DNA of 64,000 nt from the NCBI RefSeq assembly GCF_012516395.1, contig NZ_CP051206.1:186001-250000 (forward strand), written 5' to 3'. Shown here one piece after another: positions 4,259-41,926 of the stretch. The notes beneath the pieces are model-generated. The model made no database searches. It was not told the DNA's origin and saw nothing but the letters and a program-made list of their open reading frames with translations. The stretch is from Dolichospermum flos-aquae CCAP 1403/13F. GTDB lineage: Bacteria; Cyanobacteriota; Cyanobacteriia; Cyanobacteriales; Nostocaceae. Both the position numbers and the translations under genes were made by a program. Position 1 is the first letter of the stretch. Every line of letters starts with the position of its first letter.

Positions 4259-5378
4259 GTTGATTAAGCTGTTTTGCATTAGCTAAATAGTTGGATAAAT
4301 TTGGGTTGCCTGGATTTAACCCAAGTGCCAGTTGAAAATTTATGATTGATTCTTCAATATTCTTACTAAATTTTTCTGAATTGGCTTTTGCAAGATTATA
4401 ATAAGAAATACCTAATCTTTCAAACAACCTGTAATCGTGTTTTAAGTCATTATCTAATTCGATAGCTTTGCTTAAATATTTCACATTCCCAGTTGCATCT
4501 AACGTTTCCATTCCAAATTTAACTAAAAATGAAGCCAATTTTTTTTGATCCAAAATAACCTTTGAAAAACAATCAATTGCCATTTCATGATTACCATTAG
4601 AATACTCTCTATGTCCAGCAGTAAACTCTTCTGAGTTTTCAAAAGTAATCACAAAATTTCTAACAAAATCTTTGTAATAAATAATTTTCCGATTATATCC
4701 GTTATTTATAACATAATAGCCAAATTTTTGTTGAGGATTAATTGTATTAACTACTCCAGATAGAAATAACCCTACTTCAAAATTGTTGTTTTCTGCTTCA
4801 AAAAAATGCCACCCAATTGAATCAGGTGTTTTAATATTAAACCAATATCCTTTACCAATAATGCATATAACGTCAATTAATGGATTATTATCAAAGTTTT
4901 TATCATATTTTTTATATCTTTCAAATTCTGATTGTGATGTTAAATCTGTATTATAAGCAAAATATACTGTAATAGGTTTTATTTTTGAATTTAATGATTG
5001 CAGATTTCTTAGACTTCTAAATTTTTCCAATGTTGTTTGAATTTCTTGAGCAGTAGATGTAGTTTTTATTTCAAATACATAATAACAACTCTCAATAGGG
5101 TAGCAACCTTCTGATTCAGAAAATAGCGCCGGAGGAATTGCTGATTTATTATAAATTAATAAATCTACTTCCGATGATGAATTTCCTACAGAATCAACGA
5201 TTTCACCACTACCCAAATCCCAACCAAATGGCAAATATTTTCTAATGACTTGACCTAAAATACTTTCTCGAAATGCTCCTCTAAGTCCCCTATGTTTTAT
5301 AGATTCTACTTCAAATGAAGTAGAAACTAACAGCTTAATGTCATTTTCAATTCTTTTCTGATATAAAGGATGAGCCAT
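4248..5378 (-). CDS. DUF6602-like N-terminal domain with C-terminal TPR-like repeats
   Basis: Protein of about 376 aa. The N-terminal 150 residues resemble DUF6602: GAFRESILGQVIRKYLP, then GEIVDSVG, SSEVDLLIYNK and YYVFEIKTT. The spacing of the Asp in EVDLLIYN and the E-x-K in FEIKTT fits a PD-(D/E)XK nuclease-like core (inference from motif). The last 110 residues carry TPR-like helical pairs, for example YSNGNHEMAIDCFSKVILD and SIINFQLALGLNPGN. An upstream in-frame ATG at 5417 would add thirteen hydrophobic residues; 5378 is chosen because MAHPLYQKR starts the conserved-looking part. Its stop overlaps the following small gene. A role in defence or DNA processing is possible but not shown. 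Confidence 0.6.
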   Translation of the reverse strand: MAHPLYQKRIENDIKLLVSTSFEVESIKHRGLRGAFRESILGQVIRKYLPFGWDLGSGEIVDSVGNSSSEVDLLIYNKSAIPPALFSESEGCYPIESCYYVFEIKTTSTAQEIQTTLEKFRSLRNLQSLNSKIKPITVYFAYNTDLTSQSEFERYKKYDKNFDNNPLIDVICIIGKGYWFNIKTPDSIGWHFFEAENNNFEVGLFLSGVVNTINPQQKFGYYVINNGYNRKIIYYKDFVRNFVITFENSEEFTAGHREYSNGNHEMAIDCFSKVILDQKKLASFLVKFGMETLDATGNVKYLSKAIELDNDLKHDYRLFERLGISYYNLAKANSEKFSKNIEESIINFQLALGLNPGNPNLSNYLANAKQLNQHEN

Positions 5379-5657
5379 ATTACACTGGTTTAAAACCAAA
5401 AATATTACAATAAACAATTATACCAAATAAAGTAAAAATTTACAATGAATGGTTAGCAGCTATAAAATGACGTTTATTATTTCGAGGAAAAATTGTTCAA
5501 ACCCCTTACTACATCTCTTTCTAGAAGATTTCATGACCCCAAACTGGTAGTTTATTTTATCAATAGGATTTATCTAAATTCAGTTCAATAAAAAATGTAG
5601 AGACGTTCCCTAAAACATCTTTACATTAATTAACAGTTTTCTCCAAAAAATCCCTAA

Positions 5658-6257
5658 CTACCCAACTGCTACCGGAACTTTATAATAAACCGGCTCATTC
5701 CCTGCTTTCCATTTGATATTGCACCCAATACTCGGCTTTTGCTGCCAAGTAATGTCCTCATCAGCTAAAACATAATTAATCGCTTTTCGCAAATCTTGTC
5801 CAGTCACAGGTAAATCATTTTTTGGACGACTATCATCTAATTGTCCTCGATAAGCCAGCTTTCTATTAGCATTAAATACAAAAAAGTCGGGAGTACAAGC
5901 TGCAAAAAAATCTTTAGCCGCTTTTTGACTTTCATCATAAAGCAAAGGATAGGATAAATCTAATTCCTCAGCAAAATCTTTAAGTAGTTCTGGTGCATCA
6001 TTAGGATGAGTATTAATATCATTAGAACTAATTGCTAAAATACCTACATTTCTATTTTTGTAATCTTGTCCTAACTTTGCTAATTCAAATTTGATATGTT
6101 GCACAAAAGGACAATGACGACTAACAAAGATAACTACTAATACTTTTTTATCAGCAAAATTTGCCAATGAAATTGTTTTACCTGTTACTACATCTGGGAG
6201 ATTAAATTTAGGTGCTAAAGTTCCCAAAGGTAACATTGTCGAAGGTGTTAAGGCCAT
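5658..6257 (-). CDS. Thioredoxin-fold redoxin family protein
   Basis: 199-aa soluble protein of the AhpC/TSA-redoxin superfamily. The fold is seen from LGTLAPKFNLPDVVTGKT (strand before the core), VLVVIFVSRHCPFVQH (active-site strand with a single Cys, CPFV instead of CxxC), AISSNDINTHPNDAPELL and the cis-Pro region PDFFVFNANRKLAYRGQ, ending SIGCNIKWK with a second Cys. Proteins of this shape are annotated as thioredoxin-family or peroxiredoxin-like in cyanobacteria; substrate and electron donor are unknown. ATG 6257 is chosen over TTG 6266 because AAGGAA precedes it. It stands alone on its strand. Confidence 0.75.
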   Translation of the reverse strand: MALTPSTMLPLGTLAPKFNLPDVVTGKTISLANFADKKVLVVIFVSRHCPFVQHIKFELAKLGQDYKNRNVGILAISSNDINTHPNDAPELLKDFAEELDLSYPLLYDESQKAAKDFFAACTPDFFVFNANRKLAYRGQLDDSRPKNDLPVTGQDLRKAINYVLADEDITWQQKPSIGCNIKWKAGNEPVYYKVPVAVG

Positions 6258-6329
6258 AAAATCCAATTCCTTAAATTTTTGAAATTACAGTTAGTGAAAT
6301 TAATTAAATGGTGTAACTAAATTAAACCT

Positions 6330-6404
6330 AAAACCTCTCTCCTTGTAGGAGAGAGGTTTTAATTTCCCCCCTTCCCTCTTAGGGAAGGGGGTTAGGGGGT
6401 TAGG
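6330..6404. repeat. 13-bp perfect hairpin plus C/G tract, repeat found twice
   Basis: AAAACCTCTCTCC and its exact complement GGAGAGAGGTTTT are separated by five bases (6330-6360), followed by a C-tract and GGGAAGGGGG tract ending TTAGGGGGTTAGG. A related copy lies at about 10116-10201. The hairpin can act as a terminator on the minus strand after the dioxygenase remnant; the motif is a common dispersed repeat in Nostocales. Confidence 0.6.
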
Positions 6405-6800
6405 TTAAGCTGCTACAAGACTGGGAATATATGTCGCAGAATCTCCTTTAATGGCTTGACTATACTTACCGTCAATACCTAAAGGAATATCACCAGCAAT
6501 GGTTACACGCTGCACCCGACGGGGTTGATCTCCATAATCTGCGATAGCTGCGCTCGCCGAAGGCATCGCATAATGTTGAGTAGCGCGGTTATCCCAAAAT
6601 GCCACATCACCAACTTGCCAGCGCCAACGCACTGTATTCTCAGGTCGTGTAATATAAGATTGCAACAAGCGAATAATATCGGTTGATTCGGTGGGAGATA
6701 AACCGCGAATTTGCCGCACAAAACCACCAATAAATAAACCCGTTTCCCCAGATTCAGGATGTCGTCACTGAGGTTTGCACTCAGATCAACACCTTTAATT
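6405..6800 (-). pseudogene. Collapsed TauD/TfdA dioxygenase with large internal deletion
   Basis: Remnant of a second Fe(II)/2-oxoglutarate dioxygenase. Reading the minus strand from about 6800, one frame gives IKGVDLSANLSDD, matching residues of the GAEISGVDLSQ block near position 20 of the intact copy at 11392-12360. The frame then changes at the GACGACATC junction (about 6760) and gives HPESGETGLFIGG, matching the HPETGERALYVNPGF block near residue 196, and continues through FWDNRATQHYA to the normal C-terminus. About 165 residues, including the metal-binding HxD, are therefore missing. A palindromic element (6541-6569) inserts in frame after the distal His region. It cannot be an active dioxygenase. 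Confidence 0.85.
6541..6569. repeat. Palindromic element GCGAT...ATCGC inside the dioxygenase remnant
   Basis: A 29-base element with ends GCGAT and ATCGC and interior GCGCTCGCCGAAGG. Reading with the gene it adds PSASAAIADYG-like residues not present in the intact homologue. Nearly the same element is at 20952-20980, and longer relatives are at 22203, 23127, 36769 and 43760. Confidence 0.75.
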
Positions 6801-7035
6801 TTCCTTGAAAGCTTTAGTTTAATTGCCAGTATCAGTGTCAAAGAATATAAGTGGTTAATTCGTGCGGTAATATACCCAAAGGTTAAATCTACTGTTTGTC
6901 TACCGACTTACCGTAGATTAATATTATAATTACATAAATCTAGCTAAAAAGCAAGTACTTAGCCAAGGAAATATACCATAACCTAAATTTATTAATGACT
7001 AATGATTAGGTAGTCTAACTACCTCATCCCTTAAA

Positions 7036-7158
7036 CTAATTTTTGGGTTTTTTACCCTTCTTGGATGCAATTGCTTTGACTGGTTTACCATCTTGGAGAG
7101 AATCAGTAGGATTAGTAATTAACTTAGCATTAGGATTTAACCCAGAAACTACTTCCAC
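7036..7158 (-). pseudogene. C-terminal remnant of an HlyD/RND-type membrane fusion protein
   Basis: The minus strand from 7158 to the stop at 7036 reads VEVVSGLNPNAKLITN, PTDSLQDGKPV and a basic tail, which matches the last 40 residues of periplasmic adaptor subunits of RND or ABC efflux pumps (the SGLxPxxxVIxNPxDxLxDG block). Nothing upstream continues the gene: the similarity stops at a dispersed repeat (7159-7240). It is the tail of a lost efflux adaptor gene. Confidence 0.6.
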
Positions 7159-7240
7159 CTACGCGGATTACGGGAACTTCAAACCCACGGAGGTGGGTTT
7201 TGCCTGTGCAGCCGTGACTTCCAGTTGCCCGAATTTTGTT
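7159..7240. repeat. Dispersed repeat with AAACCCAC hairpin
   Basis: Contains the hairpin AAACCCACGGAGGTGGGTTT (7181-7200) followed by GCCTGTGCAGCCGTGACTTCC. This is a familiar type of intergenic repeat in Nostoc/Anabaena genomes. It sits exactly between two truncated genes (adaptor remnant and shortened MFS gene), so it probably marks the recombination point. Confidence 0.55.
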
Positions 7241-7263
7241 ATCCATTTTCTTGGTATTTTAAG

Positions 7264-8391
7264 TTAATTTGCTAATAAATTACCAAAAGGAGCCATTCCC
7301 ATAAAGCACATCGCATAAAAACCCATAACTCTACCTCGTTTACTATTTTCTACAATTAATTGCAATACTGTGTTACTAGCAGCTATTTGTAAAGTGGAAC
7401 TCCAACCAACTAAGACTAAAATTAACTGAGAAATCCAGAAAACATGAGATTGAGAAAATAATATCAGACCAATTCCCATCATGAATGGACCAAAAGCAAT
7501 GAGTTTATCTAAACCTGTGACATGATGACGAAAACTAAGGTAAATACAGGCTAAAATTGAGCCAGTTGCACCGGAAGCTGATAAAAAACCTAAAGTGTCC
7601 GCTCCTCCTTTTAATATTTCAACTGCGAAGATGGGTAAAAGTGTAATATAACCAGTTGTGACTAAGCTGGCTGTAGCTAGAAGTAAGAGAATGGAACGAA
7701 TTGGTAAGTATTGATAAGCATATTCAAAACCTTCTTTTAGTTTTTGTAAAGGATTACTGGTTTGTGGTTCGATAGTTTGGGGTGTGATTCGCATTGCTAA
7801 TATGGCGATAATTGCCGCAATGTAGCTCAAACTATCGTACAAAAAGCAATATTTAGCTCCGAATTTGGCAATGATAATTCCCCCTAAAGCGGGTCCAAGG
7901 AGACGCGCACCATGCAGGAAACCAGCATTGAGAGCGATCGCATTACTCATCAATTCCCGACTTACCATATCAGTCACAAAAGCATGACGGACAGGTACAT
8001 CTAAGCCTTTGAGCAACCCTGAAAACATACTCAAAATTAGCAATGTCCAAAAATTTGCCCAATCTAAAAATGTGATCAGTGTCAGAATTAGGGAAATAGA
8101 AATTCCTATCCATTGAAATAATAGTAACAGCCGATAACGGTTATAACGATCTGCCAGAATACCGGAAATTGGAGCTAATAAAAAAACTGGTAACTGTCCT
8201 AAAAATCCGGCAATTCCTAACAATAAAGCCGAATCAGTTAAACGATAAATTAACCAAAGTGTAGCAACTTGAGTCATAAAGTTGCCAGTCATTGATAGTC
8301 CTTGTCCGGTAAAATAAAGACGATAATTGCGGGATTTAAAAGCGGGAAGATCAAACTGCCAAGGAAACCCAAGTTTTTGTATTAATTTCAT
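7264..8391 (-). CDS. MFS transporter, C-terminally shortened
   Basis: EntS-like MFS protein of 375 aa. The start is typical: FDLPAFKSRNYRLYFTGQGLS, first helices, and the loop DRYNRYRL after helix 2; the middle has PVRHAFVTDMVSRELM. It ends at GFYAMCFMGMAPFGNLLAN, within what should be helix 11, where relatives continue for 30-50 residues. The missing end coincides with the adaptor remnant and dispersed repeat downstream, so the gene was probably cut by recombination. Whether the shortened protein still folds and transports is doubtful. The nearest relative in the window is the full-length 1878-3146 protein. Confidence 0.75.
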   Translation of the reverse strand: MKLIQKLGFPWQFDLPAFKSRNYRLYFTGQGLSMTGNFMTQVATLWLIYRLTDSALLLGIAGFLGQLPVFLLAPISGILADRYNRYRLLLLFQWIGISISLILTLITFLDWANFWTLLILSMFSGLLKGLDVPVRHAFVTDMVSRELMSNAIALNAGFLHGARLLGPALGGIIIAKFGAKYCFLYDSLSYIAAIIAILAMRITPQTIEPQTSNPLQKLKEGFEYAYQYLPIRSILLLLATASLVTTGYITLLPIFAVEILKGGADTLGFLSASGATGSILACIYLSFRHHVTGLDKLIAFGPFMMGIGLILFSQSHVFWISQLILVLVGWSSTLQIAASNTVLQLIVENSKRGRVMGFYAMCFMGMAPFGNLLAN

Positions 8392-8462
8392 GAATTAGAT
8401 TTATTTATTTTGATTTAATTAGGTTTTTTGGAAATAAACATATTTGTTTGGCTTCCAAACCC

Positions 8463-36520: not shown

Positions 36521-36718
36521 ATGACGCAAAAAATTATTGAGAGTGACAAATTAATATCAAATTTACTGCAAACCATCGAGCCAAAAGGGATTGCAGACGA
36601 ATCAATGCGTCATACAGTAGAGATATTACTAAATTTAATAGAGCAGTTACAATCAGAAGTCAAAGAATTAAGGGCAGAAAATCAGCGCCTACGGGATCAT
36701 TCGTCAATTCTGCGCTAA
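36521..36718 (+). pseudogene. N-terminal remnant of an IS transposase (coiled coil)
   Basis: 65 codons beginning MTQKIIESDKLISNLLQTIE and ending in a leucine-zipper-like coiled coil LIEQLQSEVKELRAENQRL followed by RDHSSILR and a stop. In cyanobacterial insertion sequences, an N-terminus of this kind (ENQRLRDE followed by a Gly/Lys-rich linker) leads into a DDE transposase; here it breaks off after RLRD. The IS family is not certain. A palindromic element follows at 36769. Confidence 0.5.
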
Positions 36719-36768
36719 GTGCAAAGTCATCGTCAACAATATGGGACAAAGATAGTCTACTTTACAGG

Positions 36769-36802
36769 GCGATAGTGAAGCGCTGCTGCAAGCAGTTCCG
36801 CC
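36769..36802. repeat. Palindromic element (GCGATAGTGAAGCGCTGCTG type)
   Basis: About 34 bases, GCGATAGTGAAGCGCTGCTG then CAAGCAGTTCCGCC. It matches the element at 43760-43792 with two or three changes. Here it is intergenic, between the transposase remnant and the TIR module. Confidence 0.75.
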
Positions 36803-36954
36803 TATTCATTACCGAGAACTGCAATTTGATACTCTCGTCTTACCTGTCCACTATCTAAAGTTTGATTTTTAAGTAATATGACATATTTAGCTAAAATCCT
36901 GCGAAATTATGTGATGCTTAACTAAGATTATTGTTTTACATAATTTCACTTATT

Positions 36955-37480
36955 ATGCCTAAATCTGACCCTGCCAAAATCAAAAAAAAAAGTATCATTC
37001 AGTCTTCCTTTTAGTATTGGTTCTGTGGAATGGGAAGCCGATCCAACAGAACGCAAAGCCGCCTGGTCACTTTCTGTTGAACTTGTTACCCGCATTGCAG
37101 TACAGCCTTTAGAAACTGACCAAGGACTTTTACGGGAAGCTTTGACATCTTTATACAACCTGTTTCCTGTAACCAGACAAGTTTTAAAGGAAGCAGGTCC
37201 TGATGTGGGAGCATCAATTGATTCAGTGGGAGGAATTGCGATCGCAGTCTTAAATAACGGTTTGCGTCCTTTCCTTGCTAAGTGGCATCCTCTCTTACAA
37301 ACATGGGAAGCACAGCGTCCTCCTCATCTGAGTGCGAAAGAACATGAGCGCAATTGGTCTGAAGAAACAAAATTGCGGGCTGAGTTAGAATTACTGAGGA
37401 AAGACTTGGAAAAATATGCCAACGCATTAGCGGAAATTGCTGGAGTCAAGGAAAAACAAAAGGAAGTGAACAATGGCTGA
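36955..37480 (+). CDS. Conserved small protein of the TIR module, frame broken at an A10 run
   Basis: The coding sequence appears to begin at ATG 36955 (MPKSDPAKIKKK) and to continue from about 36992 in the next frame (VSFSLPFSIGSVEWEADPTE) to the stop at 37480, about 174 aa in all. The switch falls in a run of ten A (36982-36991); nine A would keep one frame. Without a shift, translation from ATG stops after 19 codons. The remaining option is a GTG start at 37025 giving 151 aa. The protein has ERKAAWSLSVELVTRIAVQP, LLREALTSLYNLFPVTRQVL, IAVLNNGLRPFLAKWHPLLQ and a C-terminal helix LRKDLEKYANALAEIAGV. I recognise it as a conserved bacterial hypothetical often near signalling or conflict genes, without known function. 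It overlaps the TIR gene by eight bases. Confidence 0.65.
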
Positions 37481-38282
37481 ATTTGATGTTTTTTTAGCTC
37501 ACAATAGTATAGATAAGCCTGTAGTTAAAGTTATTTATGAAGCACTTGAAAAGCGTGGTATAACCTCGTGGTTAGATGGAGAAGAAATTCGTCCAGGAAG
37601 TTTATTTCAAGATGCAATACAAAAAGGAATTCCATTAAGTAAATCAGCCGCTATATTTATTGGAAAAAGTGGATTAGGAATGTGGCAAGGACTGGAATTA
37701 AAAGTAATTTTGTCAATGTGTTTAAAACAGAATATACCAGTAATTCCTGTGTTATTGCCAGGAGTGTCCGACTTGCCACAGGATATGCTTTTTTTGAAAG
37801 AATTCAATTATATAAATATTTATGACGGTGAGATAGTCAATAAAATTGTCAATAAACGTGTTTTAGATTTATTACAATGGGGCATAAAAGGCCAGAAACC
37901 AGAAGATTATTCAGCAGAACAGATAAAGATAAAGCCAGGAAAAATACCGAATAAAGAAAAGTTAGTAGACTTAGTAATTCAAGATATTTATGATAGAAAG
38001 GATAATCCCTACGCAGACGCTACAATATGGTTTGATGCTATTGAAAAAATTATTGATGATTTAGTTGATGATTTAGTTGATGCTATTGCAGAAAATAATG
38101 ATAAAAACAAAAATAAAATATTGCCTCGATTGGGTAAAATTCCTATTTTTACTGCATATAGAAATTCTCAAGAATTACTGATAAATAAATACATTATGAA
38201 TCAAATTAAAAATAAGCTAGAAAAAAAAGGAAAAAGTAAAAACGAAATTGTTAATATAATCCAACAACTATTGTTAAATTAA
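37473..38282 (+). CDS. TIR-domain protein with C-terminal helical domain
   Basis: 269-aa protein. Residues 3-130 form a TIR domain: EFDVFLAHNSIDKPVVKVIY, GITSWLDGEEIRPGSLFQDA, KSAAIFIGKSGLGMWQGLEL and IPVIPVLLPGVSDLPQDM. The Glu in WQGLELKV is at the place of the catalytic Glu of NAD-cleaving bacterial TIR domains (inference). The C-terminal 110 residues are helical and charged (KEKLVDLVIQDIYDRKDNPY, IEKIIDDLVDDLVDAI, then MNQIKNKLEKKGKSKNEIVN), resembling an effector-associated death-like adaptor rather than a second enzyme. It lies between the small protein (8-base overlap) and the WD40 gene (9-base gap). Expected role: toxic effector triggered by the WD40 partner. Confidence 0.85.
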   Translation: MAEFDVFLAHNSIDKPVVKVIYEALEKRGITSWLDGEEIRPGSLFQDAIQKGIPLSKSAAIFIGKSGLGMWQGLELKVILSMCLKQNIPVIPVLLPGVSDLPQDMLFLKEFNYINIYDGEIVNKIVNKRVLDLLQWGIKGQKPEDYSAEQIKIKPGKIPNKEKLVDLVIQDIYDRKDNPYADATIWFDAIEKIIDDLVDDLVDAIAENNDKNKNKILPRLGKIPIFTAYRNSQELLINKYIMNQIKNKLEKKGKSKNEIVNIIQQLLLN

Positions 38283-38291
38283 TAAGACACT

Positions 38292-40709
38292 ATGGAAAAA
38301 CATAAATTTCTGAAAAACAACTATACAGCAGGAAATATTCTCAACTTATTGTTGCAATTATACTCGGAAAAAGATTTTCAATACTGGGATCTATCAGAAA
38401 TAGATATTTGGGGTGTTGACTTCCGAGACGCTATCTTAACAGGAGTGGATTTTAATGACTCTGACCTGAAGAACTGTATTTTTACTCAACCTTTAGGATG
38501 TATTCACTCCATTGCTTTTAATGCTGATGGTAATTATTTTGCTACAGGCGATGCTCATGGATTAATTCGAGTACATAATACAGAAAACTTGGCTCTGTGT
38601 TTTTTTGAAAAGGGAGCAGGAAATCAGATTTGGTCAGTGGCTTTTAGTTCAGGGACAAATTCTCAACGATTTGCATTAGCAGCAGAAGATGGTAGCGTTA
38701 AGTTGTTCGAGATTGAAAACCTTGCTTCAGGCAAACTCAATTTTAAGGAAACCAACTCATGGCGTGAAACAGGACGTGTATTATCAGTAGCCTTTAGCCT
38801 TGATCCTGAAAGCAATATTCTGGCATTTGGAGGAGATGGAAATGCAATAACTTTCTACAAAATTAAAGAGAAAGATACAATACGTTTGCCCATCAGTAAT
38901 GTGTATTGTATGACTTTTATTGATGACAGAACTCTTTATAGTTGTAGCCAAGAGGGAGATTTTATTGGTTGGGATTTAAGTACACGTAACCCTCAAATAT
39001 TCTACCAAGAACGTAAGAGGCATGAAAAATTAATACGTTGTATTGCGTTTAATGCAACAAAACAAATTATAGCCACTGGATCTGAAGATGGAAAATTGAA
39101 AATTTTCGATACTAACAATAAACAAGACTTACAATTCCAGCTAGTCTATATTGAAAACGGATCTGAAAAAGACTATGAATATACAAAATATATTAGTGAA
39201 ATACGTACACTAGCATTTAGTTGCGATGGGAGTATTCTTGCAATTGGATGTATTTGTAAGAATCAACCTGATAATAGTGAGCATAAAATTCTACTGTTTG
39301 ATTTAACTGGAGACAAATGGAAACTGATTAGCACATTGGATAATTCTCTTTCAGAAAACCAAGACCAAAATGGTCATACACATTTGATCAGAAGCATTGC
39401 ATTTAGTCCTAACACTGATAAACCTCTATTTTTTATAAGCGGTGGTGATGGACGCACTGTCAAACTCTGGGATTGGGATCAAGACAAAAAAAAATGGAAA
39501 TGTCAAGATAATTTGAGAGGATACGCTAATCGCCTCTGGTCAGTGGCATTTAGTAAGAATGAAAATCAATCAATTTTTGCTTGTGGATGTGAAGATAATA
39601 ACATTCATATTTGGAATTACAATGATCGCACACATATTCCTAGTTACACCCTTTCCAAACATAAGGATTGGGTTTGGTCAGTAGCCTTCAACCATGATGG
39701 AACACTTTTAGCTAGTGCTAGTGAAGATAAGACTATTGGTCTTTGGCAGTTTAAAGATAACAACTGGAATCTTATAAATCCTGAAGCAGAAAATACATCA
39801 CAAACAAACCACTTACTTAACATAAAACATACTAAACGCGTTAGATGTGTTGCTTTTCATCCTACGGAAAATATTTTAGCTAGTACAGGGAATGATAATA
39901 TAGTTATTCTATGGGATCTAAGAAATCTGAATAATATAAAAGTATTATCCAAATTTACGAATCACACCGACCGAGTGTTATCCCTAGCTTTTAGTCCAGA
40001 TGGTCATTTCTTAGCTAGTAGCAGTCGGGATAAGACTATTCGTTTGATAGACATTGTAGATAGTGAACCAAGCAATGACCAGCAGTCAAACTCTTCGGTT
40101 TTGGAAAAACCACTGGAGGGGCATCAAGATCAAGTTCATAGTATTGCTTTTATTAAAAACACTGAAGGTTTAGTTTTTCCAAAAGAACAGGAAAATCCTC
40201 CAGAAACCCAGGAAATTAAACCCTTTTTGGTTAGCAGTGGTTTTGATAGACAACTGATATTATGGGGGATTAATCACAATAATACCTCTGTGGAGAAACT
40301 ATGTTCTGTGAATGAAGGTCAAAGAATACTTTCTGTTGCGTGTCACCCCACAGAACTAATTATTGCTAGTGCCGGGCATGATCGCATTATTATACTATGG
40401 AAAATAGAAAAAAATGAAAAAAATGAATATGTATTCAAAAAAGTCAAGATACTTAAAGGACATAAACGCGCTGTAGAATCTATAGTATTTACTCCTGATT
40501 GCAAGAGGTTAATTAGTTGTGGACAAGACCAGACTATTAGGTTTTGGGATGTAGAGGTAGATAAGAATAAGGAGATTAGTAAAATTAATATTAGTCTTCA
40601 CACCATAGAACTTGGTAAACCATACCAGGGTATGAATATTTCTGGAGTTAAAAATTTAGATCCTGCCCAAATATCTGTTTTAGAAGAATTAGGAGCTTCA
40701 AGAGATTAA
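38292..40709 (+). CDS. WD40-repeat protein with pentapeptide-like N-terminus, 805 aa
   Basis: Scaffold or sensor of the TIR module. Residues 1-70 contain a short pentapeptide-repeat-like stretch (DLSEIDIWGVDFRDAILTG, VDFNDSDLKNCIF). From residue 72 to the end I count fourteen WD40 units, for example SIAFNADGNYFATGDAHG, SVAFNHDGTLLASASEDKT and SLAFSPDGHFLASSSRDKT, which would make two seven-bladed propellers. The ATG follows the TIR stop by nine bases, so the genes are cotranscribed. There is no NACHT/NB-ARC or protease domain. Unlike the near-identical repeats of the 57148 protein, these repeats are strongly diverged, which fits an old and specific binding surface. Confidence 0.88.
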   Translation: MEKHKFLKNNYTAGNILNLLLQLYSEKDFQYWDLSEIDIWGVDFRDAILTGVDFNDSDLKNCIFTQPLGCIHSIAFNADGNYFATGDAHGLIRVHNTENLALCFFEKGAGNQIWSVAFSSGTNSQRFALAAEDGSVKLFEIENLASGKLNFKETNSWRETGRVLSVAFSLDPESNILAFGGDGNAITFYKIKEKDTIRLPISNVYCMTFIDDRTLYSCSQEGDFIGWDLSTRNPQIFYQERKRHEKLIRCIAFNATKQIIATGSEDGKLKIFDTNNKQDLQFQLVYIENGSEKDYEYTKYISEIRTLAFSCDGSILAIGCICKNQPDNSEHKILLFDLTGDKWKLISTLDNSLSENQDQNGHTHLIRSIAFSPNTDKPLFFISGGDGRTVKLWDWDQDKKKWKCQDNLRGYANRLWSVAFSKNENQSIFACGCEDNNIHIWNYNDRTHIPSYTLSKHKDWVWSVAFNHDGTLLASASEDKTIGLWQFKDNNWNLINPEAENTSQTNHLLNIKHTKRVRCVAFHPTENILASTGNDNIVILWDLRNLNNIKVLSKFTNHTDRVLSLAFSPDGHFLASSSRDKTIRLIDIVDSEPSNDQQSNSSVLEKPLEGHQDQVHSIAFIKNTEGLVFPKEQENPPETQEIKPFLVSSGFDRQLILWGINHNNTSVEKLCSVNEGQRILSVACHPTELIIASAGHDRIIILWKIEKNEKNEYVFKKVKILKGHKRAVESIVFTPDCKRLISCGQDQTIRFWDVEVDKNKEISKINISLHTIELGKPYQGMNISGVKNLDPAQISVLEELGASRD

Positions 40710-40751
40710 CAAATAAGCTGGTTGAATCAAAAAAAACGGAACTATTAAGTT

Positions 40752-41528
40752 TTATTCTTCCAAAAATTCAAAATGCCGTAAACCTTCTTCAATTCCAGCA
40801 GCAAACTCAGCTTTTGCTAAGTAACGATTTTTGCTTGGGTTTGCTTTGTGCCAATCTAGTAATTCTTGTTTGGCATTTGCAACAATAATACCTTTTTCTT
40901 TTCTATTGGCAAAGAGGGCAATATCATTACCAGAGTCCCCACACGCAACTGTTTTGGCTGGTTCTATTTCTAAATATTCGCGGACAAAGGTCATGGACAT
41001 ACCTTTGTTGGCTTTACGTGGTAGGATGTCTAGGTCTTTGTTATCACTATAAATAACTTGAATATCTAAACTTTGTTGGAGTAAGGCTTTTTCTAAGTCT
41101 GATACTATTTGTAGAGCCGTTTTTTCTTGGAGAAAATAGCTAACTTTAAAAGGTCTTTGCTCACTTTCCGGCTGTGGTTTTAATTGAGTAAAATTGGCAG
41201 CTATTTTTACAACTAATTCTCTATCCCAATCTTCAGATAGATTCTCTGACCACTGATTATTAATAATCAATTGATCTTGATGATTATAAGAGTAAATTTC
41301 TGTACCTACGGCGCAAATGAGTATATTTGGCTGTAAAAGTGCTGTTCGTTTTTGATTTTGTTGTTGTTCTAGTTGCTGATACAGATATAGCGATCGCCCA
41401 GTAGAGTAAACAATTTTTGTATTGTGTTGCTGACGATATAGTTCTAATTTGCGATTCAGTCCTTCCATTGCTTGATCATCACCCACGAGAGTGTGATCAA
41501 GATCGGTAATGAAAAGAAATTGAGTCAC
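40752..41528 (-). CDS. Sucrose-phosphate phosphatase-like HAD hydrolase
   Basis: 258-aa HAD-superfamily (Cof/SPP type) phosphatase. Motif I FLFITDLDHTLVGDD carries the nucleophile Asp and acid/base Asp, motif II is YSTGRS, the lysine is in RKANKGMSMTF, and motif IV is CGDSGNDIALF. Sucrose-phosphate phosphatase removes the phosphate from sucrose 6-phosphate, the last step of sucrose synthesis in heterocystous cyanobacteria. GTG 41528 is the start because AAGGAG lies six bases before it; the ATG at 41558 would sit upstream of that site. The gene is followed on the other strand by a headless second copy. Confidence 0.82.
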   Translation of the reverse strand: MTQFLFITDLDHTLVGDDQAMEGLNRKLELYRQQHNTKIVYSTGRSLYLYQQLEQQQNQKRTALLQPNILICAVGTEIYSYNHQDQLIINNQWSENLSEDWDRELVVKIAANFTQLKPQPESEQRPFKVSYFLQEKTALQIVSDLEKALLQQSLDIQVIYSDNKDLDILPRKANKGMSMTFVREYLEIEPAKTVACGDSGNDIALFANRKEKGIIVANAKQELLDWHKANPSKNRYLAKAEFAAGIEEGLRHFEFLEE

Positions 41529-41596
41529 AGTATACTCCTTATATATAGTCGTTTTCAAACCAAATTCGCCTGACTATACCACAACTTGAAACCGAG

Positions 41597-41926
41597 TTGC
41601 AAAAAACTCAACTAAATGTAAAGTTAATCTATAGTAGTGAAATTGACCTTGACATTTTACCCCATACCAGCGATAAAGGTCAAGCAATGCAGTTTTTACG
41701 ACAGAAGTGGAAATTTGCAGCCGAGCAGACTGTTGTTTGTGGCGATTCAGGTAATGATATAGCTTTATTCGCTGTCGGTAGGGAACGGGGAATCATTGTC
41801 GGGAATGCTCGTCCAGAGTTACTCCAATGGTATCATCAGCATCCTGCGGACTACCGTTACCTCGCCCAAAACCGTTGTGCTGCTGGGATTATGGAAGGTT
41901 TAAAATATTTTGGTTTCCTAGAATGA
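41597..41926 (+). pseudogene. Headless copy of the sucrose-phosphate phosphatase-like gene
   Basis: A 109-codon frame matching the last 43% of the neighbouring phosphatase: [60 protein letters not shown] and [13 protein letters not shown]. Similarity can be traced a few codons upstream to about 41570 (RLTIPQLETEL). The nucleophile motif DxD is missing, so it cannot be a phosphatase. The frame nevertheless remains open, and its stop TGA overlaps the ruvA start as ATGA, so it may survive because it carries translation into ruvA. Confidence 0.8.

Follow-up and report, generated by a model that had tools for sequence, protein, structure and literature searches.

A two-gene unit of g1 and a TIR fusion protein

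The 64,000-nucleotide stretch analysed here (the window; Dolichospermum flos-aquae CCAP 1403/13F, contig NZ_CP051206.1, positions 186,001 to 250,000) carries what looks, from sequence comparisons, like a decaying copy of a two-gene TIR module. One gene encodes a small conserved protein, here called g1; the other encodes a TIR protein with a second, variable domain joined to it, in this copy a WD40 domain. We tentatively interpret the locus as a decaying two-component TIR immune module, in which a TIR-sensor fusion would be accompanied by g1 reading the TIR product and relaying the response. We consider this interpretation plausible, though somewhat short of probable.

The locus had previously been described, from its letters alone, as a three-gene system. 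The open reading frames (ORFs) of this sequence-only reading were recovered. The TIR ORF (37473..38282, plus strand) encodes 269 aa and matches Pfam TIR_2 over residues 6–118 (E 2.7e-16), the WD40 ORF (38292..40709, plus strand) encodes 805 aa with fourteen repeat cores by pattern count, and the ORFs show the overlap of 8 bases and the gap of 9 bases described for them. The division into three genes did not hold. The TIR and WD40 ORFs of the window share one frame, 819 nt apart, and two tandem stop codons (38280..38285, plus strand) stand between them. In Dolichospermum sp. LEGE 00240 (L062 = L100) the frame is open at this point and TIR and WD40 form a single ORF of 1034 aa, whose TIR and WD40 parts are 89% and 77% identical, respectively, to those of the window. 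The "three genes" are therefore a split two-gene unit, and what is conserved is a pair, g1 and a TIR fusion protein whose second domain varies.

Linkage of g1 and TIR genes

The 5.2-Mb source genome contains only three TIR_2 matches and two g1 matches, and both g1 copies adjoin a TIR gene, so their co-location goes beyond chance. Within the order, 24 of 291 genomes have a homologue of g1, and within the phylum 22 of 386. On GTDB contigs, 314 g1-related stretches were detected; the best 80 include metagenome-assembled genomes (MAGs) of Omnitrophota and Planctomycetota. These best 80 gave 79 loci, one of them without a g1 ORF, and the resulting set of 78 loci is biased to close relatives. Eleven plasmid records carried g1, among them those of Streptomyces, Photobacterium, Ruegeria, Sinorhizobium, Vibrio, Mesorhizobium and Rhizobium; nine were examined, the two left out being further S. 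longwoodensis records. Three more loci came from viral contigs.

A TIR gene was the same-strand neighbour of g1 in 61 of the 78 GTDB-contig loci (49 downstream, 12 upstream), with a gap of at most 50 bp in 48 of the 61 pairs. An opposite-strand TIR neighbour was present in 2 more loci, and a TIR gene lay within 5 kb in 70 of the 78. At a distance of at least three genes from g1, 10 of 348 ORFs in the same loci encoded TIR proteins. Loci from genomes of the order had a TIR neighbour in 20 of 27 cases against a background of 1/224, plasmid loci in 6 of 9 cases against 6/36, and all three viral contigs had a TIR gene next to g1. When the order and GTDB-contig sets, which share members, were pooled, TIR was downstream of 76 and upstream of 15 of 122 g1 ORFs. 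The TIR profile had been derived from these same loci, and Pfam confirmed all 74 members of the TIR set, which comprises 73 non-redundant g1 neighbours and the window TIR protein. The pairing recurs on plasmids of Streptomyces, Photobacterium and rhizobia and in a Planctomycetota MAG. A conserved gene neighbourhood was thus found for g1 with TIR; WD40 is just one among many partner domains.

At L077 (G209, positions 4601–8429) a row of TIR genes stands directly before g1, and one ORF of 499 aa contains two TIR matches. On a viral contig (L190, 4324–5432) a ThsB_TIR gene adjoins g1, which suggests that the pair is carried by phages or prophages.

Variable partner domains and fusions of g1

Pfam analysis of the 74 TIR proteins revealed TIR_2 in all 74, GUN4 in 34, FGE-sulfatase in five, TPR_2 in four and WD40 in three. 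Single cases of iSTAND, dynamin, HD-CE with HATPase, adenosine-deaminase-like and methyltransferase domains were also detected, and the g1 partner of Photobacterium was a TIR-NLR protein (PADLOC, E 9e-277). TIR or TIR-like and WD40 proteins occur together beside g1 in Dolichospermum, Nostoc LPT (L122), Dulcicalothrix (L160, WD40 first), a Planctomycetota MAG (L168, where the TIR assignment rests on the custom TIR profile, E 2.5e-4) and Streptomyces (L179, and L178 with a transposase gene between).

In rhizobia, g1 forms the N-terminus of patatin-like proteins of 860–890 aa at all three loci (L182, L184, L186; the patatin match of L182 is under the Pfam cut-off), and six hydrophobic segments were predicted in both of the fusions tested, two of the three. 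Some cyanobacterial and Streptomyces g1 proteins have N-terminal transmembrane (TM) segments. An arrangement like that of a membrane receptor was observed at L072, L089, L102 and L165, where g1 is preceded by a hydrophobic N-terminal stretch, an additional domain common to these proteins and a TM segment; at L102 just one TM segment was over the threshold.

The g1 family

At E-values up to 1, window g1 had no match in Pfam, PADLOC or NCBIfam. Its relatives had no match in PADLOC, NCBIfam or PHROGs (four relatives for PHROGs), and their sole Pfam match was DUF3482, under the cut-off (E 0.004) and located in the TM region of one Streptomyces g1 protein. A sequence-profile search of the PDB gave nothing below E 0.5, and a fold search of the PDB gave, among the matches listed, generic helical bundles, none of them significant. 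The description of the first gene as conserved and unnamed thus stands, and g1 is linked to TIR in many genomes; the ATG at 36955, taken as its start, is not in frame with the g1 ORF.

The structure model of g1 predicts a hairpin followed by four helices. A set of charged and polar residues (E41, R45, R73, N99, R103 and H110) is kept across phyla. In the third helix (90–117) R103-x6-H110 is almost invariant (R in 101/102, H in 102/102 sequences), with a proline after R103; E41-x3-R45, in the first helix, is near-invariant. The g1 of the Ruegeria sp. YS9 plasmid (L181) is the sole relative that lacks this set, with D41, S45, K73, T99 and G103 in its place. No TIR was found in the 10.4 kb of this locus, and a large neighbouring gene product has no Pfam match. 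That five charged residues and TIR are lacking together is a hint from one case.

The TIR protein and comparison with known systems

The window TIR protein has the fold and the sequence family of TIR domains. The TIR fold covers residues ~1–142 and is followed by a helical C-terminal domain (~161–268); the helical C-terminus noticed earlier is present in the structure model, where this part has block values of the predicted local distance difference test (pLDDT) of about 50–77. The conserved glutamate of TIR domains has a catalytic role. In our set it is E75, invariant in 74 of 74 TIR proteins, located on helix 70–85 of the model after the BB-loop region and aligned with a Glu of Cat1 and TIR-STING. 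In the comparison with Retron-TIR, TIR-SAVED and SPARTA TIR-APAZ the TIR part alone matches; reverse transcriptase, SAVED and Argonaute domains were absent from g1, the TIR protein and the WD40 protein in Pfam, PADLOC and NCBIfam searches.

The module resembles Thoeris in having a TIR protein and a separate partner in one operon. It differs in having g1 as this partner and in carrying the sensor on the TIR protein itself. A ThsA effector (SIR2-SLOG or macro) was detected in none of g1, TIR and WD40 (Pfam, PADLOC, NCBIfam; of the other window genes, the ABC transporter alone was scanned). The window TIR protein matched PADLOC ThsB weakly (E 0.0041), and ThsB_TIR matched 5 of the 74 g1 partners at 1e-4; strong ThsB_TIR matches were obtained at L184 and L190. 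At L184 both TIR genes tested were ThsB_TIR, and they flank the gene of the g1-patatin fusion, an arrangement like that of Thoeris in which the effector is an unlisted one.

A second resemblance is to TIR-NLR (PADLOC PDLC03015) and TIR/NB-ARC/WD40 STAND proteins, which likewise combine TIR with a repeat sensor and have a linker like that of the window WD40. Unlike them, the window TIR and WD40 proteins have no ATPase domain detected by Pfam. The earlier statement that the system lacks a STAND ATPase is thus supported for these two proteins, but it is not general, as TIR-NLR and inactive-STAND partners occur elsewhere.

The available parts of two papers by Kaur et al. (2020 and 2021; PMC7159879, PMC8195603) describe systems of multicellular bacteria in which a constant small component has many variable partners, and those of the 2020 paper include GUN4 and TIR in one polypeptide. 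In this respect g1 is similar to the effector-associated domains (EADs) and EACC described there. EADs, as presented in the same parts, are paired copies in two proteins, whereas neither the TIR nor the WD40 protein gave an above-threshold match to the g1 profile. A g1-like TIR partner was not found in those parts of the two papers. Neither the g1-TIR pair nor any other system of such make-up was found in the literature searched, outside which most subscription papers lie, in agreement with the sequence-only reading. The g1-TIR module may thus be a new variant of TIR-based immunity, of which the window holds a damaged copy.

Proposed function and alternative explanations

A sensor domain acting on a TIR domain, which in turn yields an NAD-derived product, is standard TIR biology. 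For the module described here, the first component would be a TIR enzyme joined via a helical linker to a sensor, in the window a WD40 double propeller. The variable domain would detect infection or stress, upon which the TIR domain would consume NAD or convert it to a nucleotide signal. The constant part, g1, would bind the TIR product and carry out or relay the response. The pairing itself, its distribution, the range of partner domains, the pattern of conservation and the lesions are observed; TIR NADase activity, sensing and the reader or output function given to g1 are what we infer. For g1, a reader or output role is favoured because it is conserved (~73% identity, against ~33% among the partner TIR domains, with no correlated divergence in 66 pairs), keeps its charged residues across phyla and occurs in membrane-directed fusions. 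The role of likely sensor, given to WD40 in the sequence-only reading, is supported.

Several observations run counter to the pairing. No adjacent TIR gene was present in 15 of the 78 g1 loci, and within the order g1 was missing from the surrounding 4 kb of 11 of 29 strong TIR matches. Genome G077 encodes a TIR protein with a GUN4-like C-terminus and has no g1 match. Two E. coli TIR-NLR loci that we inspected had no g1 gene. When four divergent pairs were included, a g1/TIR correlation appeared (r 0.281), which weakens the argument for a reader.

Alternatively, g1 may bind the TIR domain itself, as an adaptor or scaffold protein, and control TIR assembly without reading any small molecule. We regard this as rather unlikely. 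The tight operon linkage of g1 and TIR in several phyla would fit such a role, and so would the four-helix bundle, a common adaptor shape; the best Foldseek matches of g1 were FAT domains, which are adaptor bundles, although these matches were not significant. Covariation would be expected for a fitted protein pair, yet no correlated divergence was found in 66 cyanobacterial-type pairs, where the partners are so different that weak covariation could escape. The difference in conservation between g1 and TIR, the charged and polar nature of the conserved g1 set and the absence of any ORF with both g1 and TIR among 123 g1 and 143 TIR ORFs also argue against an adaptor.

The reader proposal can be extended to the whole family, in a form that we consider unlikely and put forward as speculation. 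Here g1 would be a hitherto unnamed receptor-effector domain for TIR-made nucleotide signals, adding a third type to the SLOG and macro readers, and would be common to Cyanobacteriota, Actinomycetota, Planctomycetota and Pseudomonadota. It would act alone, membrane-tethered or phospholipase-fused, and would serve interchangeable sensors including the tetrapyrrole-binding GUN4.

An immunity protein (antitoxin) holding a TIR toxin in check would be consistent with the small size of g1, its usually upstream position and its frequent overlap with, or location within 20 bp of, the TIR gene. This explanation is very improbable. The TIR-GUN4 protein of G077, which is of the same type as g1 partners, exists in a genome without g1, and other TIR genes have no g1 nearby; the suggestion of the sequence-only reading that the first protein restrains the TIR protein accordingly became less likely. 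Moreover, g1 is fused to a patatin-like protein and to TM segments. In addition, g1 is out of frame in the window and truncated in G286, a genome of the same genus, yet the pre-insertion TIR protein of G286 is 99% identical to that of the window.

The idea that g1 is a distant HEPN-type RNase and the killing output of the TIR signal is highly doubtful: g1 shares with HEPN four helices in its model, an ExxxR motif (the near-invariant E41-x3-R45) and R103-x6-H110 in the third helix, which agrees with the Rx4-6H pattern, with H110 somewhat before the helix end, but E41 is in the first helix and not the second, so that Ex3[KR] is not found in helix 2, a proline and not a polar residue follows R103, and no profile or fold match was significant (probability 0.1% with a small HEPN profile of 6 sequences; HEPN-MNT structure 9th in Foldseek, E 1.7). 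According to the available part of PMC3710099, these HEPN features are common and not universal, and the residue after Arg is mostly polar.

If g1 does read TIR products, one small domain would unite many TIR proteins with different sensors, GUN4 partners could tie photosynthetic state to immunity in cyanobacteria, and g1 would be a marker for TIR immune modules that are unnamed in current defence models. Even if g1 were merely an adaptor, its conservation beside a diverging TIR points to one common task.

The WD40 part and its probable origin

The N-terminal linker of the window WD40 protein (~38292–38500) is like the pre-WD40 stretch of NB-ARC proteins. Its first 75 aa match 21 plasmid records, and because 10 of these 21 are annotated there as NB-ARC or NACHT, a STAND protein, minus its ATPase, is the probable source of the sensor. 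With Pfam, no NB-ARC or NACHT match was found in the window TIR protein and no STAND ATPase in the WD40 protein, for which the best 25 of 54 matches were propeller families.

The window and G286 (L066) are 99% identical in their TIR parts and 98–100% identical over the first 250 residues of WD40, and later WD40 blocks of 50 residues are 54–92% identical. G286 equals LEGE 00240 in blocks where the window differs. The mosaic WD40 region looks like the result of recombination among repeats.

Lesions in the window copy and its orthologues

The ATG of g1 and its N-terminal codons (36955..37014, plus strand) are followed by a stop after 19 codons, and the conserved g1 sequence continues in another frame, the break falling across a run of ten A (36982–36991). 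The conserved part (37025..37480, plus strand) is open from a GTG for 151 aa and lacks most of the N-terminal beta hairpin of full-length relatives. These relatives begin with a similar peptide in a single frame; therefore, there are intact forms of g1, and that of the window is either broken or slippage-dependent.

Lesions were present in all three orthologous copies found. In G286, g1 is truncated, the TIR gene contains an insertion of 1.4 kb, and the tandem stops are the same as in the window. In LEGE 00240 the 3' end of WD40 runs into apparent insertion-element ends, as deduced from two contigs. Since all three are damaged, the window locus looks like a decaying copy of the two-gene TIR module, and it illustrates how such a module breaks down, with its sensor split, its partner gene shifted in frame and its WD40 region mosaic.

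Whether the locus in the source strain is a relic without present function, whatever the family does, is in our estimate evenly balanced. The frame break in g1 and the tandem stops favour a relic, as do the lesions of G286, the insertion-element ends near the LEGE 00240 WD40 gene and the replacement by Ser, in the window copy, of Y39, which is at least 90% conserved in the g1 alignment. On the other hand, the TIR and WD40 ORFs of the window are open, and the ratio of nonsynonymous to synonymous substitution rates (dN/dS) between copies is 0.37–0.75. The ten-A run could permit slippage, which is generally known on such runs, and the tandem stops, 6 bases ahead of an ATG, could permit reinitiation.

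Insertion site and flanking features

The HAD-family gene before ruvA, as we presume the downstream gene to be, is uninterrupted in all seven module-free relatives examined (L210–L216). In the window, a remnant of this gene (36720..36773, plus strand) forms the left edge of an inserted segment, and its C-terminal part (41577..41926, plus strand) forms the right edge. The two flanks (36720–36773 and 41577 onward) match the gene of the relatives about 260 bp apart; thus, the module and an extra minus-strand HAD gene replaced about 260 bp. The extra gene (40752..41558, minus strand), presumably a HAD-family phosphatase-like gene judging from its sequence, is a second HAD gene, lying within the interrupted one (36720–41926).

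Upstream of the unit, the palindromic repeat and the insertion-sequence remnant reported earlier are both present. A terminator-like perfect inverted repeat of 19 nt (36319–36337/36349–36367) followed by a T run stands after the ABC transporter gene, and a remnant ORF of 65 aa (36521..36718, plus strand) is similar to a transposase N-terminus, presumably of the IS66 family.

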